Under the pieces are notes generated by a model. That model searched no databases, was not told the DNA's origin, and worked only from the letters and a program-made list of their open reading frames with translations. From Janthinobacterium sp. TB1-E2 (GTDB lineage Bacteria > Pseudomonadota > Gammaproteobacteria > Burkholderiales > Burkholderiaceae_D), in contig NZ_CP142523.1 of assembly GCF_036885605.1 (NCBI RefSeq), positions 434,001 through 498,000 on the forward strand: DNA of 64,000 nt. The letters run 5' to 3'. The translations under genes and the position numbers were made by a program. This document shows positions 29,665 to 35,570 of this stretch, piece by piece. Within the stretch, counting starts at the first letter, position 1, and each line of letters starts with the position of its first letter.

Positions 29665-29949
29665 GATGGTTTCCTTTAGGTATATAAATAGGTGACTACT
29701 AAATAGTGTACTACTTGTTTCGTGAGCTCTCGCCCCAGGATCTCCGTCTGCAGAAGCACTTGCCGGCGTCCATGTACATAATATATATCGCGTGCTATTT
29801 AATTGCAAGCGATTTTATTTCGGGGTGGCGCGAATTGATGCTTTATTTTGCAGCCTTTGTCGCCACTACCTGGCTTCCATCGCATAATGGCCACCGCCGC
29901 CGGGACCGATGGTTATGCTTGGCCCACTTCACACCCCCAAGGAAAAATC

Positions 29950-31215
29950 ATGACTAGCCTCTTCTTTATCCTGCGCATCACCGTGGCCACGATGCTCACC
30001 TACATCATCGCCACGGCGATCCTGGTCGAGAACTTCCTGCGCTATATCTTCGGGAATACGGAAGGCTTCTTTGTCATCGTCGGCGCGCTGCTGGCCAGCG
30101 CCGTCATCACGAATGCGTTTTCGCACGTGCGGCGCGTGCGCCTGATCGCCGGCGCCGTCAATGCCGGCACCCTGTCGAGCCGCCAGCGGCGCCAGATCGA
30201 GATCCCGTTCGAAGCGGGCGAAACGTTCGACATGATCGACGCGGCCATCCGCGAATTGCCGGGCAGCGAAGTGGTCGAAAGCGCGCGCGACAGCCTGCAG
30301 GTGCAGGCTAGAGTGCGCCGCGCCGCGCCCTATACGCACACGGGTTTGCCCCGCATGCGCGTGCTCGGTTTCCTCGAGCCGCGGCCGAACCAGATCCTCG
30401 CCACCGTCACGCCGAATGGCGAGGCGGGCAGCGTGACCCTGATCTGCGAACCGGCGCGCAATGCCTGGACCGACTGGTTCCTCGTCGACCATGGCAGCAA
30501 CCTGGAAAACGCGGAAGCGGTGACGCGGGCGATGACGCGCCGCGTGGCGCAGCGCCGGCGCGGCGAGCAGGCCGAGGCGCGCCAGACGGTGACGGAAAAG
30601 GAACTCACGGTGGCCAAGCTGAGCCTGCTGCATGCGCAGGTCGAGCCGCACTTCCTGTACAACACCCTGGCCAGCGCGCAGCTGCTCACGCGCAGCGACC
30701 CCGTGCGCGCCGATGAAATGCTGGGCAACCTGATTTTGTACCTGCGCCACTCGCTGCCACGCACGGAGCAAGCGATGTCGACCCTGGGCACGGAGCTGGA
30801 ACGGGCGCGCGCCTATCTCGATATTTTGAAAATCCGCATGGGCGGGCGTTTGAACCTGCAGATCGAAGTGCCGCAATACCTGCGTCAGGTGGAGCTGCCG
30901 CCGATGATGCTGCAAACCCTGGTGGAAAACGCCATCAAGCATGGCCTGGAGCCGAAAAGCGGCGGCGGCACCATCTGGATCATGGCGCGCAGCGGCGATG
31001 GCACGGTGATCGTCACGGTGGCCGACGACGGCAAGGGTTTCAGCGACGATGGTGCCGGCACGGGCATCGGCCTGCGCAATGTGCGCGAACGCCTGCGCCT
31101 GACCTACGGCAATGCCGCCGCGTTTGCCATTGTCGCCAATTTTCCCGATGGCGTGACAGCCACCATCACGGTGCCGGACAGCACGGCGCAAGGAGTGTCG
31201 TATGCATCAGCCTGA
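29950..31215 (+). CDS. LytS/YehU-type sensor histidine kinase
   Basis: 421 residues from the ATG at 29950, with AAGGA upstream. There are two N-terminal membrane helices (about 8-28 and 40-57) without a large sensor domain, a middle region of unknown fold (80-200), then a His_kinase domain with H234 in VEPHFLYN and a HATPase domain with ENAIKHG (326-332), DDGKGF (359-364) and GTGIGL (370-375). It probably phosphorylates the LytTR regulator whose start overlaps its 3' end by 14 bp. Confidence 0.9.
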   Translation: MTSLFFILRITVATMLTYIIATAILVENFLRYIFGNTEGFFVIVGALLASAVITNAFSHVRRVRLIAGAVNAGTLSSRQRRQIEIPFEAGETFDMIDAAIRELPGSEVVESARDSLQVQARVRRAAPYTHTGLPRMRVLGFLEPRPNQILATVTPNGEAGSVTLICEPARNAWTDWFLVDHGSNLENAEAVTRAMTRRVAQRRRGEQAEARQTVTEKELTVAKLSLLHAQVEPHFLYNTLASAQLLTRSDPVRADEMLGNLILYLRHSLPRTEQAMSTLGTELERARAYLDILKIRMGGRLNLQIEVPQYLRQVELPPMMLQTLVENAIKHGLEPKSGGGTIWIMARSGDGTVIVTVADDGKGFSDDGAGTGIGLRNVRERLRLTYGNAAAFAIVANFPDGVTATITVPDSTAQGVSYASA

Positions 31216-31984
31216 GATGACTTGCGTCATTGCCGAAGATGAAACCCTGCTGCGCGACGCGCTCGTGGCCCTGCTGACCGAAGAGTGGCCCTACTTGCGC
31301 ATCGTCGCCGCCTGCGACGACGGCGGCACGGCGCTCGAGGCCATCGCCACGCACAAGCCCGACGTCGCCTTCCTCGATATCCGCATGCCGGGCCTGACGG
31401 GGCTGGAAGTGGCGGCCGGCGCGCTCGAAGCGAGTCCCGCCACGCAGGTGGTGTTCGTCACGGCCTACGACCAGTACGCGATCGATGCCTTCGACAAGGG
31501 CGCCGTCGATTATCTGTTGAAACCGATTGGACGCGAGCGCCTGCAAGCGACCCTGCAGCGTGTGCAGGCGCGGGCCGGCAAGGCCCGGGCGGGCGACGGC
31601 GGGCTGGCCGGCTTGCTGCAGCAATTGAGCAGCGCCTTGCCTGCGGCCGCCAAGTCGCCGCCGCTGGTGTGGCTGACGGCCAGCAGCGGCAAGGATACGC
31701 GGCTGATCATGGTGGAAGACATCGCCTATTTTCAGTCCGATACCAAGTACACGGCCGTCATGACGGCGGACGGCGAGGCGCTGCTGCGCAAGCCGATCCG
31801 CGAACTGCTCGACGTGCTCGATCCTGCCATCTTCAAGCAGATCCACCGCTCCACCATCGTCAACATGAAGATGGTGGCGTCAGTGACGCGCGACGAGGTG
31901 GGACGCGGCGCCTTGCGCCTCAAGACGCGGCCGGAAACGCTGGCCGTGAGCCAGCCGTTTATGGCGCTGTTCCGGAATATGTAG
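31202..31984 (+). CDS. LytTR family response regulator
   Basis: 260 residues. The receiver domain has acidic AEDE (11-14), phosphoacceptor D59 in FLDIRMPG and Lys in LLKPIGRERL. A LytTR DNA-binding domain occupies about 157-258 (IAYFQSDTKYTAV, FKQIHRSTIVNM). It overlaps the kinase gene by 14 bp, with AAGGAG just upstream, so the two are translationally coupled. Its last 13 codons are present a second time, with only synonymous changes, at 32787-32827, beyond the PEP-CTERM gene. Confidence 0.92.
   Translation: MHQPEMTCVIAEDETLLRDALVALLTEEWPYLRIVAACDDGGTALEAIATHKPDVAFLDIRMPGLTGLEVAAGALEASPATQVVFVTAYDQYAIDAFDKGAVDYLLKPIGRERLQATLQRVQARAGKARAGDGGLAGLLQQLSSALPAAAKSPPLVWLTASSGKDTRLIMVEDIAYFQSDTKYTAVMTADGEALLRKPIRELLDVLDPAIFKQIHRSTIVNMKMVASVTRDEVGRGALRLKTRPETLAVSQPFMALFRNM
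31942..31982 (+). repeat. Direct repeat copy 1: 3' end of the LytTR regulator gene
   Basis: 41 bp inside the regulator gene, coding VSQPFMALFRNM. It matches 32787-32827 at 38 of 41 positions. The three differences are synonymous in this frame (Phe TTT/TTC, Ala GCG/GCC, Leu CTG/TTG). Confidence 0.9.
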
Positions 31985-32048
31985 CCGCTATTGCGCCCTT
32001 TCAAAACCGTCGCACACACTTTTTTCATACTTTCTTCGCCCATAGTTA

Positions 32049-32076
32049 TTATCATAATTATATTTAATTATGATAA
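32049..32076. promoter_or_regulatory. Perfect AT-rich palindrome upstream of the PEP-CTERM gene
   Basis: TTATCATAATTA (32049-32060), a TATT spacer, then TAATTATGATAA (32065-32076): a perfect 12-bp inverted repeat made of A/T except for one pair. It lies about 85 bp upstream of the PEP-CTERM start and 65 bp after the regulator stop. It could be an operator or a promoter UP-like region; no T run makes it a terminator. Confidence 0.6.
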
Positions 32077-32161
32077 AATTAACATGACGGCATGCCGTGA
32101 GACGTGATGGGTACGTCTCCTGAAGCGCTTTTTTAACGCTCTGCAAAAATATGAGGAAACC

Positions 32162-32743
32162 ATGAAAAAGAACCTGTTGTGCGCCGCCTTACTTGTCGCC
32201 GGAATATCTACTGTCCATGCGCAGCCGACGACGTGGGATTTTACTTATCGAGGCTTTGTCGACGCGGCTACCGGCGTATTCGATTCTCGCCGGGAGTTCG
32301 GGGGCAGTTTTGTCGGGGAGGACAGTAATCAGGACGGTGTGATTGTGTTGGATGAGTTGAGCTATTTCAGCTCCGGGGGCTACCTGTTTTTCCCTGTCAC
32401 GCCAGGCAGCTATGGATGCAATACTTCCTCCTACCTCCGGTGTGAAGTAAAAAATTTCAGTTATACACTGACAGGTAAACTTCAATATGAAGCCAGGACC
32501 TACGGCTATGACGAAGGTTCCATGTCCTGGTATAGCAATGACGTTATCGGCAGTCACCTCCTCCGCGGTGGAGGAGATTTTATGCGGGGCACAAGATGGG
32601 AAAATCGTTATAACTGGTCCGATCAGACGACCTTCACGATTTCCCCGGCGCCCGTTCCTGAGCCAACGGTCGCGTTGATGCTGCCCGCCGGCCTGGCACT
32701 CATGTACCTTGCGCGGGTACGCCGCCGTAAGACTTCAGCATAA
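32162..32743 (+). CDS. PEP-CTERM sorting domain protein
   Basis: 193 residues. A Sec signal peptide (LLCAALLVAGISTVHA) is followed by an unrecognised mature domain rich in Tyr, Ser and Gly, then the sorting tail: VPEPTVALMLPAGLALMYLA (about 167-186) and the basic RVRRRK end. Such proteins are processed by exosortase (XrtA) and usually reach the outer surface or matrix. TGAGGAAACC gives a good ribosome-binding site. The coding sequence looks less GC-rich than its neighbours, and it is bracketed by two copies of the LytTR gene's 3' end, suggesting acquisition. Confidence 0.88.
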   Translation: MKKNLLCAALLVAGISTVHAQPTTWDFTYRGFVDAATGVFDSRREFGGSFVGEDSNQDGVIVLDELSYFSSGGYLFFPVTPGSYGCNTSSYLRCEVKNFSYTLTGKLQYEARTYGYDEGSMSWYSNDVIGSHLLRGGGDFMRGTRWENRYNWSDQTTFTISPAPVPEPTVALMLPAGLALMYLARVRRRKTSA

Positions 32744-32786
32744 TCCCGCCTTGTCCGCTGCGCCGGAAAACGCACTTGGCAGTTTG

Positions 32787-32827
32787 GGCCGTGAGCCAGC
32801 CGTTCATGGCCTTGTTCCGGAATATGT
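32787..32827 (+). repeat. Direct repeat copy 2: remnant of a LytTR regulator gene 3' end
   Basis: 41 bp, 38 identical to 31942-31982, still reading VSQPFMALFRNM then a stop. A looser match extends upstream (CCGGAAAACGC compared with CCGGAAACGC). It is not part of any intact gene and is best read as a fossil of the regulator's original 3' end. Confidence 0.85.
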
Positions 32828-32835
32828 GAGGTCGG

Positions 32836-32885
32836 GTAGGTCGGCTTAGCGGGGCCGCCGAGGCCCGCCAGGGCGTAAGCCGACA
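32836..32885. repeat. REP-like palindrome, GGCTTA variant
   Basis: GTAGGTCGGCTTAGCG...GCGTAAGCCGACA with a longer GC-rich inner stem. Compared with the other copies, the core is GGCTTA and the opposite arm TAAGCC, again a paired change. It lies 8 bp after the remnant of the regulator gene. Confidence 0.8.
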
Positions 32886-32896
32886 TCACTACAGGC

Positions 32897-33940
32897 CTAT
32901 TCCGCCGTCTCGAACCCTTCGAGCACATTGACGACATTGATGCCGATTTCCTTCACCGCATAGCCGCCTTCGAGGATGAAGGCGGTGGGCAGGTTCAGGT
33001 GCGCGAGGCGCTCGCCCACGCGCAGGTAGTCGCCGCTTTGCAGGGCGAAGTGCGATAGCGGGTCGCCGGCGAAGGTGTCGACACCGAGCGACACCACCAG
33101 CGCGTCGGGCGCGTACATATTGATGCGCAGGCAGGCCGTTTCCAGCGCGGCGAACCAGCTGGCCGTGGTGCTGCCGGCCGGCAGCGGCAGGTTGACGTTG
33201 TAGCCGAGCCCCGCGCCGCTGCCCGTCTCGTCGGCGTGGCCCAGATAAAATGGATACTCATTGCGCGGGTCGGCGTGGATGGAGGCGAACAGCACGTCGT
33301 CGCGCTGGTAAAAGATGCTTTGGGTGCCGTTGCCGTGGTGGTAGTCGATATCGAGGATGGCGACCTTGCGGGCGCCATCGTCGAGCAAATGCTGTGCGGC
33401 CAGGGCCGCGTTGTTCAGAAAACAGTAGCCGCCAAAAAAGTCGCTGCCCGCGTGGTGGCCCGGTGGGCGCGTGAGGGCGAACGTGGCGCGCTCGCCCAGG
33501 CGCAGCGCGTGGGCCGCGTTGACGGCGCAGTCGGCGCCCGTCTTGGCCGCCGTCCACGTGCCGGCCGTCAGCGGCGTGCCGTTGTCCATCGAGTACAGGC
33601 CCAGCTTGGCCGTGAAGTCGTCCGGTTCGATATCGCTGCGCAAGGTGCGCACGGGCCACACGGATGGCAGTGCATCCTTGCCCGCGTTGTCGGGGTCGAG
33701 CGCCAGCCAGTCATGCCAGGCGTGGCGCAAAAAATGCAGGTAACGGGGCGTGTGGATGCGCTCTAACGACGTCAGCGGCACGCCGTGCGGCGTGACGATG
33801 CGGCCCAGGTTGCGCCGTCCCAGCTCGGCCACCACCATGTCGGCCCGTTCGGGCGTCTCGAAGCAGGGCACCATGGTCCCGCGAAACATCTCGAAGCGGC
33901 CCCGGTGCTGGCCGTGCAATTCATTGTAGAAGGTCAGCAT
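32897..33940 (-). CDS. Histone deacetylase family protein, acetylpolyamine amidohydrolase type
   Basis: 347 residues from the ATG at 33940. The class motifs are present: RPPGHHAG (158-165) with the catalytic His pair, AILDIDYHHGNG (194-205) with zinc ligands D199 and H201, HADPRNEYPFYLGHADE (as in bacterial acetylpolyamine amidohydrolases), the third zinc Asp in SLGVDTFAGDPL, and ILEGGYAVKE at the end. It probably deacetylates an acetylpolyamine or similar small amide in the cytoplasm. It starts 28 bp after the gshA stop, on the same strand. Confidence 0.9.
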   Translation of the reverse strand: MLTFYNELHGQHRGRFEMFRGTMVPCFETPERADMVVAELGRRNLGRIVTPHGVPLTSLERIHTPRYLHFLRHAWHDWLALDPDNAGKDALPSVWPVRTLRSDIEPDDFTAKLGLYSMDNGTPLTAGTWTAAKTGADCAVNAAHALRLGERATFALTRPPGHHAGSDFFGGYCFLNNAALAAQHLLDDGARKVAILDIDYHHGNGTQSIFYQRDDVLFASIHADPRNEYPFYLGHADETGSGAGLGYNVNLPLPAGSTTASWFAALETACLRINMYAPDALVVSLGVDTFAGDPLSHFALQSGDYLRVGERLAHLNLPTAFILEGGYAVKEIGINVVNVLEGFETAE

Positions 33941-33968
33941 GGGGTGCCAGGCGAAAAGTCGGGCAGGA

Positions 33969-35570
33969 TCAGGTGTGCGAACACAGGGTGCTGGCGCGGT
34001 AGGCGGCGACGAAATCGTCGAAGCTGCCGGCCGGTGCCGCTTCCATGGCGCGCTGCTCGGCCAGCGAGCTGGCGGCCATCGCGTCGAAATACGCACTTTG
34101 CTCGGGTGTGGGCGGATGCGCGCGGAAAAACGCCGCATGGCGTTCGCTTTGCTGCAGGCCGAAGGCGGCAAACGAGCCGCCGTTGGCGCGCAGCTCGGCC
34201 AATACCTTCGCCGATGGCGTGGCATCCGGGTTGGCCAGTTTGACGGCTTGTGCCGCCAGGCTGTCCGCGTGCTGCGTGCCGCCATGGCGAGAGTCGAGCA
34301 AGGCTGCCACCGGTGCGATGCGTGCCAGCAATTCCTCGCCCCAGGCCTGCAGGGTGATCTCCTCGCCGTCGCGGCGCAGGGTCAAGCCCGGCTTGCGGCC
34401 TTCCTTGACGGTGCGCGCGAAATTGTTCGTGTAGCAGGCGCTTTGCTCGGCCGAGATGGGACCGCTGTCGTCGAGCGCGCAGAACAGCAGGAACGCGTCG
34501 AGGAAACGGCCCGTTTCCAGGCTGATGCCGACCGGTTCGAACGGGTCGACGTCCATGCAGCGCACTTCGATGTATTGCACGCCGCGCAGGCACAGAGCCT
34601 GGATCGGGCGCTCGCCCGTGCGGATCACGCGCTTCGGGCGGATGGTCGAATAGTATTCATTTTCGATCTGCAGCACGTTGGTGGACAATTGAATCCACTC
34701 GCCATCCTTCTTGGTGCCCAGCGCCGCATATGGCGGATACGGGTCGTTGACGGCGTGCGTGAGCGCGTTGACGTAGTCTTCCAGGCTGTTTTCGTGCGGA
34801 CGCAGGCCCGACTGGGCGTCGTTCTGGTAGCCGAGGTCGCTCATGCGCAGGCTGGTGGCGTACGGCAGGAACAAGGTGTCGTCGGACAAGGTGTCGAGCT
34901 TGTGCGCGCGGCCGCGCAGGAAACCGGCGGACAGGGCCGGCGAAGCGCCGAACAGGTACATCAGGAGCCAGCTGTAGCGGCGGAAATTGCGGATCGTCGC
35001 CAGATAGCTTTCCGACTGCACGTCTTTCGGCGTGGCTGCTGCTTGCGTGGCGCTGGCGCTGGTGTCCGGATTGCTGGCCAGCACTTGCCACAGCTGCTCG
35101 TCGAGCGAGTAGTTGTAATGGATGCCGGCGATGCATTGCATGGCTTTGCCGTAACGCAAGGCCAGGCCGCGCCGGTAGACGTGCTTGAGCATGCCCATGT
35201 TCGAGGTGCCGTAGTTGGCGATCTCGATGTCCGCTTCGGGCGGCAGCTGGCATGGCATCGACTGGCTCCACAGCAACTCGTCGCCGAGGCGGCTGTAGGC
35301 GTGGCGGTGCACGGTGTCGAGCTTGTCGAGCGTGACGCCGATGTCGGCTTCGGCCGGGGTGATGAATTCGAGCAGCGCCTCGGCGTAATCGGTGGTGATT
35401 TCAGGGTGCGTCAGCGCCGAGCCCAGAGCGGCGGGATGGGGCGTGGAAGCCAGATGGCCGGCGTGGTCGACGCGCAGGGTTTCACGTTCGATGCCGCGCA
35501 AGCCGCCCAGCAGCGCGCGGTTGGCATCTTCGGTCAGCAATGCCAGGCGGCGAGTCAACAGGTTGGGCAA
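33969..35570 (-). CDS. gshA: Glutamate-cysteine ligase
   Basis: 533 residues from a TTG at 35570, preceded by AAGGAAG with a six-base spacer; the frame is open to 35654 but the upstream part is not conserved. [13 protein letters not shown] is the N-terminal ATP/substrate segment of the proteobacterial type, with [36 protein letters not shown]-like [18 protein letters not shown] and [16 protein letters not shown]. It makes gamma-glutamylcysteine, the first step of glutathione synthesis. It precedes the deacetylase gene in a likely two-gene unit. Confidence 0.92.

Follow-up and report, generated by a model that had tools for sequence, protein, structure and literature searches.

A PEP-CTERM gene lying between a LytTR regulator and a partial second copy of the regulator's 3' end in Janthinobacterium sp. 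TB1-E2

The locus and its PEP-CTERM gene

The window, the whole 64,000-nucleotide stretch analysed here, comes from the 6.31 Mb chromosome of Janthinobacterium sp. TB1-E2. At the locus of interest the genes are arranged in the order LysR, DJ-1/PfpI, OsmC, histidine kinase, LytTR regulator, PEP-CTERM gene, deacetylase-like gene and glutamate-cysteine ligase. The features relevant to this study are the following.

29848..31215, + strand: gene for a sensor histidine kinase (coordinates of the listed ORF; the real start may lie further in); Pfam His_kinase 4.3e-19, HATPase_c 6.6e-9
31202..31984, + strand: LytTR response regulator, 260 aa; Pfam Response_reg 1.1e-23, LytTR 2.5e-18
31942..31982, + strand: copy 1, the regulator's native 3' end (repeat core); the longer duplicated stretch is 31913-31982
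31985..32161, + strand: A+T-rich spacer with the PEP-CTERM promoter region, 177 bp, 39.5% GC
32162..32743, + strand: PEP-CTERM protein gene, 193 aa, with a VPEP tail, a hydrophobic stretch and RRR; TIGR02595 match
32758..32786, + strand: probable worn old layer of copy 2, colinear with regulator 31913-31941
32787..32827, + strand: fresh layer of copy 2, 38/41 against copy 1 and 41/41 against the regulator ends of G016 and G032
32828..32896, no strand: some 10 additional bp followed by a REP element and the end of the intergenic region, near-identical to the empty allele of G024; REP motif at 32837-32851
32897..33940, - strand: histone-deacetylase-like gene, right flank; Pfam Hist_deacetyl 5.5e-71

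The first-pass annotation had remarked that the PEP-CTERM gene is less GC-rich than its surroundings, and this is so: it has 53.4% GC against 66.0% for the regulator, 66.5% for the deacetylase gene and 62.9% for the window. No other gene-like ORF lies between the two regulator ends; the four further ORFs that overlap this stretch match no Pfam family. The 3' part of the spacer aligns with the upstream regions of six other close PEP-CTERM genes. Within the spacer lies a perfect palindrome with 12-bp arms (TTATCATAATTA/TAATTATGATAA, 32049-32076), the right half of which is mostly kept in the other close PEP-CTERM genes; it is a possible operator. Consensus scans of 31900-32950 revealed three promoter-like sites (shuffle mean 1.0), one of them at 32024-32052 upstream of the PEP-CTERM gene, and three terminator-like sites (shuffle mean 1.1), none of which falls between that gene and copy 2. 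No RNA family matched 31850-33000 at E values up to 1, and folding of the PEP-CTERM leader barely beat shuffled sequences (z -0.96; 37/200 shuffles as good). The REP motif (TAGGTCGGNTTAGCG) occurs 68 + 69 times in the window's genome, the reversed control giving 0; the REP element is a member of a large family in this genome.

The tail of the PEP-CTERM protein scores 18.1 bits against TIGR02595 (PEP_CTERM; cut-off 16), while the protein as a whole matches no Pfam family and no other named family above cut-off. The exosortase family PF09721 has two matches over cut-off in the window's genome (G000) and a match in 39 of the 40 genomes of the genus set. Since the tail passes TIGR02595 and the genome has two exosortase-family matches, the host exosortase probably directs the product to the envelope or further out. 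The predicted structure (seven sequences; mean pLDDT 35.7) was too poor to be of use.

Across the 40 genomes, all seven close copies of the gene (at least 57% identity) are found at the kinase-regulator locus. Five lie behind the regulator and two beside OsmC in G013, at distances of approximately 3 and 4 kb upstream of the regulator's end. The latter are tandem PEP-CTERM paralogues (L130, 3376-3963 and 4367-4951), 57-58% identical to the window's gene, the second being flanked by a 40-bp imperfect direct repeat. A self-moving cassette is unlikely, since copies elsewhere would be expected and all seven are at one locus. More distant homologues occupy four loci in the genus (31-35% identity across most of the length), and no LytTR neighbour was seen by eye among the ORFs listed there. 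A family-wide search found a homologue at E 1e-10 or better in 60 of 392 genomes, and the plasmid and phage collections gave no match at E 1e-5. A tail pattern applied to 80 regulator loci flagged eight, of which two have real PEP-CTERM genes nearby, both in Janthinobacterium; on inspection by eye, L048, L051, L069, L085, L093 and L104 were judged to be frames lacking a genuine PEP-CTERM tail and were discarded.

Control by the neighbouring LytTR pair is hinted at only by the position of the gene; a search with a LytTR half-site for paired sites upstream of the seven close PEP-CTERM genes and of the kinase found none better than in shuffled sequences, and so gave no support.

Empty and filled intervals in the genus

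The genus set comprises 40 genomes, one per species, 39 of which match the window stretch. The region was extracted from 36 relatives and the window (G028, G031 and G037 were left out). With a 55% identity filter, five slices (G001, G002, G010, G021 and G022, the last cut by a contig end) had no regulator beside the deacetylase gene, so that the comparison of intervals covers 32 genomes, namely the window and 31 relatives. In G002 (L162) and G010 (L163) the deacetylase gene adjoins OsmC with no kinase-regulator pair between them. G002 has a regulator-like match (81% over 283 bp) on another contig, and we therefore take the position of the pair to be variable.

A single regulator end and no PEP-CTERM gene were found in 27 of the 32 intervals, in agreement with the first-pass annotation's view of the gene as an addition and contrary to the case it had set against itself, in which all relatives carry both copies and the gene. 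It had also expected empty relatives to carry one regulator end followed directly by the REP element. The single end held for all 27, whereas the REP element begins at the regulator stop in five (G038, G024, G014, G029 and G011) and does not do so in the other 22. Its suggestion that other cargo might occupy the site proved right, the occupants being an IS110-type transposase, a peptide-like ORF and a palindromic element. The interval is shorter than 10 bp in seven of the 32 genomes. A palindromic GGGGTCAGACC-type sequence, recognised by a simple text rule, was present in nine (eight of 81-95 bp, and 23 bp in G012); an element with such ends occupies the interval in eight relatives, for example G017 (L138). 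The IS110-family transposase lies in G033. In G027 (L160) the only cargo noticed in a 432-bp interval is a 47-aa ORF whose leader resembles the double-glycine type, with a weak ComC match below cut-off. Four intervals hold other sequence (G004, G008, G023 and G035), that of G035 appearing by eye to be a worn palindrome.

The PEP-CTERM gene is present in the other five intervals, those of the window, G013, G007, G019 and, in diverged form, G036. Thus both an empty allele with one gene end and a filled allele with its cargo between two are found. In G007 (L131) and G019 (L132) the gene is present and copy 2 absent, so that a separate deletion or an origin free of duplication is needed for them. 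Their genes have lost the stop codon, the frame continuing into sequence antisense to the 3' end of the deacetylase gene (217 and 214 aa), and between the two dN (0.074) exceeds dS (0.051). The G036 gene sits behind what appears by eye to be a worn palindromic element and has an upstream region closer to that of the G013 pair than to the window's; for these reasons we take it as a separate placement.

Against G013, the dS of the window was 0.232 for the PEP-CTERM gene, 0.221 for the regulator and 0.293 for the deacetylase gene. The corresponding values were 0.229, 0.293 and 0.250 against G007; 0.303, 0.263 and 0.250 against G019; and 0.770, 0.397 and 0.340 against G036, the gene of which belongs to another branch than the window-type gene. 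Among the four window-type genes dN ranged from 0.07 to 0.19, far above the flanks. Since the dS of the PEP-CTERM gene is about that of its flanks, the gene is no new arrival: its time in the genus roughly equals the divergence time of the flanks.

The right-flank tree groups the window with G017 and G006, neither of which has the gene (support 100/99). The left-flank tree groups it with the same two plus G009 and G018 (86/98), although here the bootstrap had not settled. G013 and the G007/G019 pair are placed elsewhere on these trees. The four carriers need three changes, counted against the five REP-type genomes only, where shuffled labels need a mean of 3.2, and the well-supported branches force just one change on the left and two on the right. 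Because shuffled labels do equally well and so few changes are forced, the flank trees are compatible with one origin of the gene followed by losses. Sliding identities revealed that the flanks are mosaic. The right side of the window allele resembles G024, but SNPs near both flank ends are common variously to G017, G013 and the REP-type strains, so that breakpoints could not be placed.

These data bear on the view that the gene is ancestral in the species group and has mostly been lost, REP-type empty sites perhaps being deletions between regulator ends. The agreement of dS between gene and flanks in the window-G013 comparison fits such a history, as do the flank trees, and a deletion between the repeats would yield precisely the REP-type empty site. 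We nevertheless find it improbable, because the deeper branches (G008, G015, G023, G026, G027 and G033) are without the gene and have intervals that are bare or hold unrelated sequence, and because a PEP-CTERM gene accompanies only two of the 80 regulator loci listed.

The second regulator end

As the first-pass annotation had stated, the end of the regulator gene (31942-31982) recurs 845 bp downstream (32787-32827) with 38/41 identical positions. No longer direct repeat is listed for 30500-34500. Read in the frame of the regulator, the copies differ by three synonymous changes (TTT/TTC, GCG/GCC and CTG/TTG), and both translate as AVSQPFMALFRNM. Each of the 32 intervals was then scored by its best ungapped match to the final 41 nt, stop included, of the genome's own regulator gene. 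Only two intervals gave a second regulator end, the window's with 38/41 and that of G013 with 30/41; none of the remaining 30 exceeded 22/41.

The outer 41 bp of the window's copy 2 are identical (41/41) to the regulator ends of G016 and G032 and match their own regulator at 38/41, and 32787-32896 differs from the empty allele of G024 by one 10-bp insertion and two substitutions. The first-pass annotation's suggestion of exchange between strains is supported. The same annotation took the synonymous differences to mean that copy 2 had been under coding selection; recent copying from another strain's working regulator end explains them better than selection in the place where the copy now lies. 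A local tandem duplication of the regulator end together with the PEP-CTERM gene, one of the two genes being lost afterwards, is hardly credible. Tandem PEP-CTERM paralogues do exist nearby in G013; in the window, however, the regulator end alone is doubled, copy 2 is closer to other strains' alleles than to its own, and it is followed by an allele-specific REP element.

Judged from the alignment, copy 2 seems to be longer than 41 bp, with colinear similarity extending leftward to 32758. At the same 845-bp offset, 32758-32786 matches 31913-31941 at 15/29 positions, a value reached by 0.4% of the 29-mers in 10 kb. The equivalent 29 bp of G013 match its own regulator at 20/29 and the best of the 32 regulators at 22/29, which is the single best value among 1878 offsets. 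The worn left part is short, was spotted post hoc and is weak when the window is considered alone: the best-of-32-regulators test gave 18/29, a score matched or exceeded at four further offsets (20 at one of them), and a shuffle test with gaps allowed gave p 0.056. At six of the 29 positions the window and G013 agree on a base absent from all 32 regulators, as would be expected if both descend from a single worn copy, or if the stretch they share was never regulator sequence. The two parts are unequally worn in the window (15/29 left vs 38/41 right, Fisher p 1.3e-4), while wear in the G013 copy is even (left 20/29, right 30/41, Fisher p 0.79). Copy 2 of the window thus looks like two layers of different age. 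Our reading, supported though not proven, is that copy 2 goes back to an ancient second regulator end and that its outer 41 bp were later overwritten when it recombined with an empty allele.

Another reading has a single layer, in which the repeat is 41 bp long and the PEP-CTERM gene was added directly, in one step, to a REP-type empty site, the G013 copy having decayed and the similarity on the left being due to chance. Copy 2, the REP element and the flank do resemble a single empty allele, and the left extension is weak in the window both in the gapped test and by the rival offsets. This reading must, however, treat as accidental the left part of G013, which ranks first of all offsets, and leaves the even wear of the whole G013 copy to be accounted for; we consider it unlikely, though the most serious of the alternatives. 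The recent addition of some 845 bp in one piece, as originally proposed for this locus, agrees neither with the equality of dS between gene and flanks nor with the apparent two layers of copy 2.

Repeats were also scored within 700 bp on either side of 36 PEP-family loci. The window scored 32, G013 scored 20 and 32 other loci at most 14; the two G013 paralogue loci scored 44 and 19, from repeats around or belonging to the neighbouring PEP-CTERM units. Since 300 mismatched control pairs reach 22, the G013 value is unexceptional by score alone. Of these 36 loci, the window and G013, the latter in worn form, are the only ones where the regulator-end repeat was seen, and no att-like repeat was found at further insertions.

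The first-pass annotation had also entertained an element able to regenerate the end of the gene it targets; if this were an integrative element, the two regulator ends would be att sites. The geometry, with a restored gene end and a displaced copy, fits. No recombinase family was found, however, in 14 scanned window proteins, among them the four other ORFs overlapping the inserted stretch; the 32 intervals hold no longer relative except the one IS110-type transposase in G033; the gene-end repeat is absent from other PEP-CTERM loci beyond G013; and there is no plasmid or phage match. We regard such an element as very improbable.

A proposed history and its relation to known systems

We favour, with moderate confidence, a history in which the PEP-CTERM gene is an accessory gene of the variable interval between the LytTR regulator and the convergent deacetylase gene, gained and spread by exchange through the flanks, with a later overwrite. 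The repeated regulator end most likely records an ordinary exchange of DNA between strains, a scar that was in part overwritten later. First, in the ancestor of the window and G013 alleles, DNA with the gene already behind a regulator would have been joined to an allele without it, leaving approximately 70 bp of a second regulator end behind the gene. In the alignment, the join after the gene is common to the window and G013. It might have arisen by a homologous crossover combined with an illegitimate join, or a circularised fragment might have entered by a single crossover; either type fits, with either the PEP-CTERM side or the empty side as recipient. Second, comparison of the alleles suggests that this second end decayed, evenly so in G013. 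Third, in the lineage of the window, the outer 41 bp and the REP element would have been overwritten through an empty REP-type allele, which would account for their fresh look and for differences that are synonymous only. Fourth, allelic exchange at the conserved flanks presumably accounts both for transfer of the gene from strain to strain and for its loss, the gene having no mobility of its own. We suggest spread by flanking homology because there is no recombinase in the scanned genes and no plasmid or phage match, and because the seven copies share one locus.

A more speculative proposal, to which we give little credence, is that copy 2 serves as a homology decoy shielding the gene. Incoming alleles without the gene would pair with copy 2 rather than copy 1, and the gene would survive exchanges that otherwise remove it; pairing of copy 1 with copy 2 would, conversely, allow its clean loss. 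Moreover, this PEP-CTERM subfamily appears to have been placed in at least three ways at one two-component pair (the window type, G036 and the G013 pair beside OsmC), a hint that the regulator may control it.

The locus offers a readable case of how a small accessory gene, bringing no mobility genes, can enter a chromosome and persist there, a single genus providing empty, filled, worn and refreshed versions of the site. A warning follows as well: a repeat may look fresh and differ only at synonymous positions without showing when the insertion took place, and in this case what it dates is probably the later overwrite. That a fast-evolving PEP-CTERM subfamily clusters around one LytTR pair is a lead that can be tested.

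Chromosomes contain sites whose gene content varies and which are exchanged through conserved flanks. The present interval resembles them in being bare or in holding, according to species, a PEP-CTERM gene, an IS110-type transposase, a peptide-like ORF, a REP element or a palindromic element; unlike such sites generally, it is very small, has a single accessory gene and bears a gene-end scar. The protein resembles those sorted by the PEP-CTERM/exosortase system (TIGR02595, PF09721) in its tail and in the two exosortase-family matches of its host; as a point of difference, the whole sequence reaches no other named family above cut-off. The arrangement of cargo between a gene end and a partial copy of that end is like the products of homology-facilitated illegitimate recombination or of a single crossover of a circularised molecule (PMC3240628). 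In the Escherichia coli assay described in that source, 56 of 60 clones gave a PCR product for a partial duplication of the homologous end, making such duplications the commonest product of that one assay, and 14 sequenced clones had duplications of 109-950 bp, which its authors ascribed to single crossing-over (PMC3240628). Unlike the products described there, ours are old natural alleles from which the event is reconstructed, with a duplicate of approximately 70 bp that is worn and appears to have been overwritten in part later. The mechanism is ordinary and the example well resolved, a case of gene gain and no new system.
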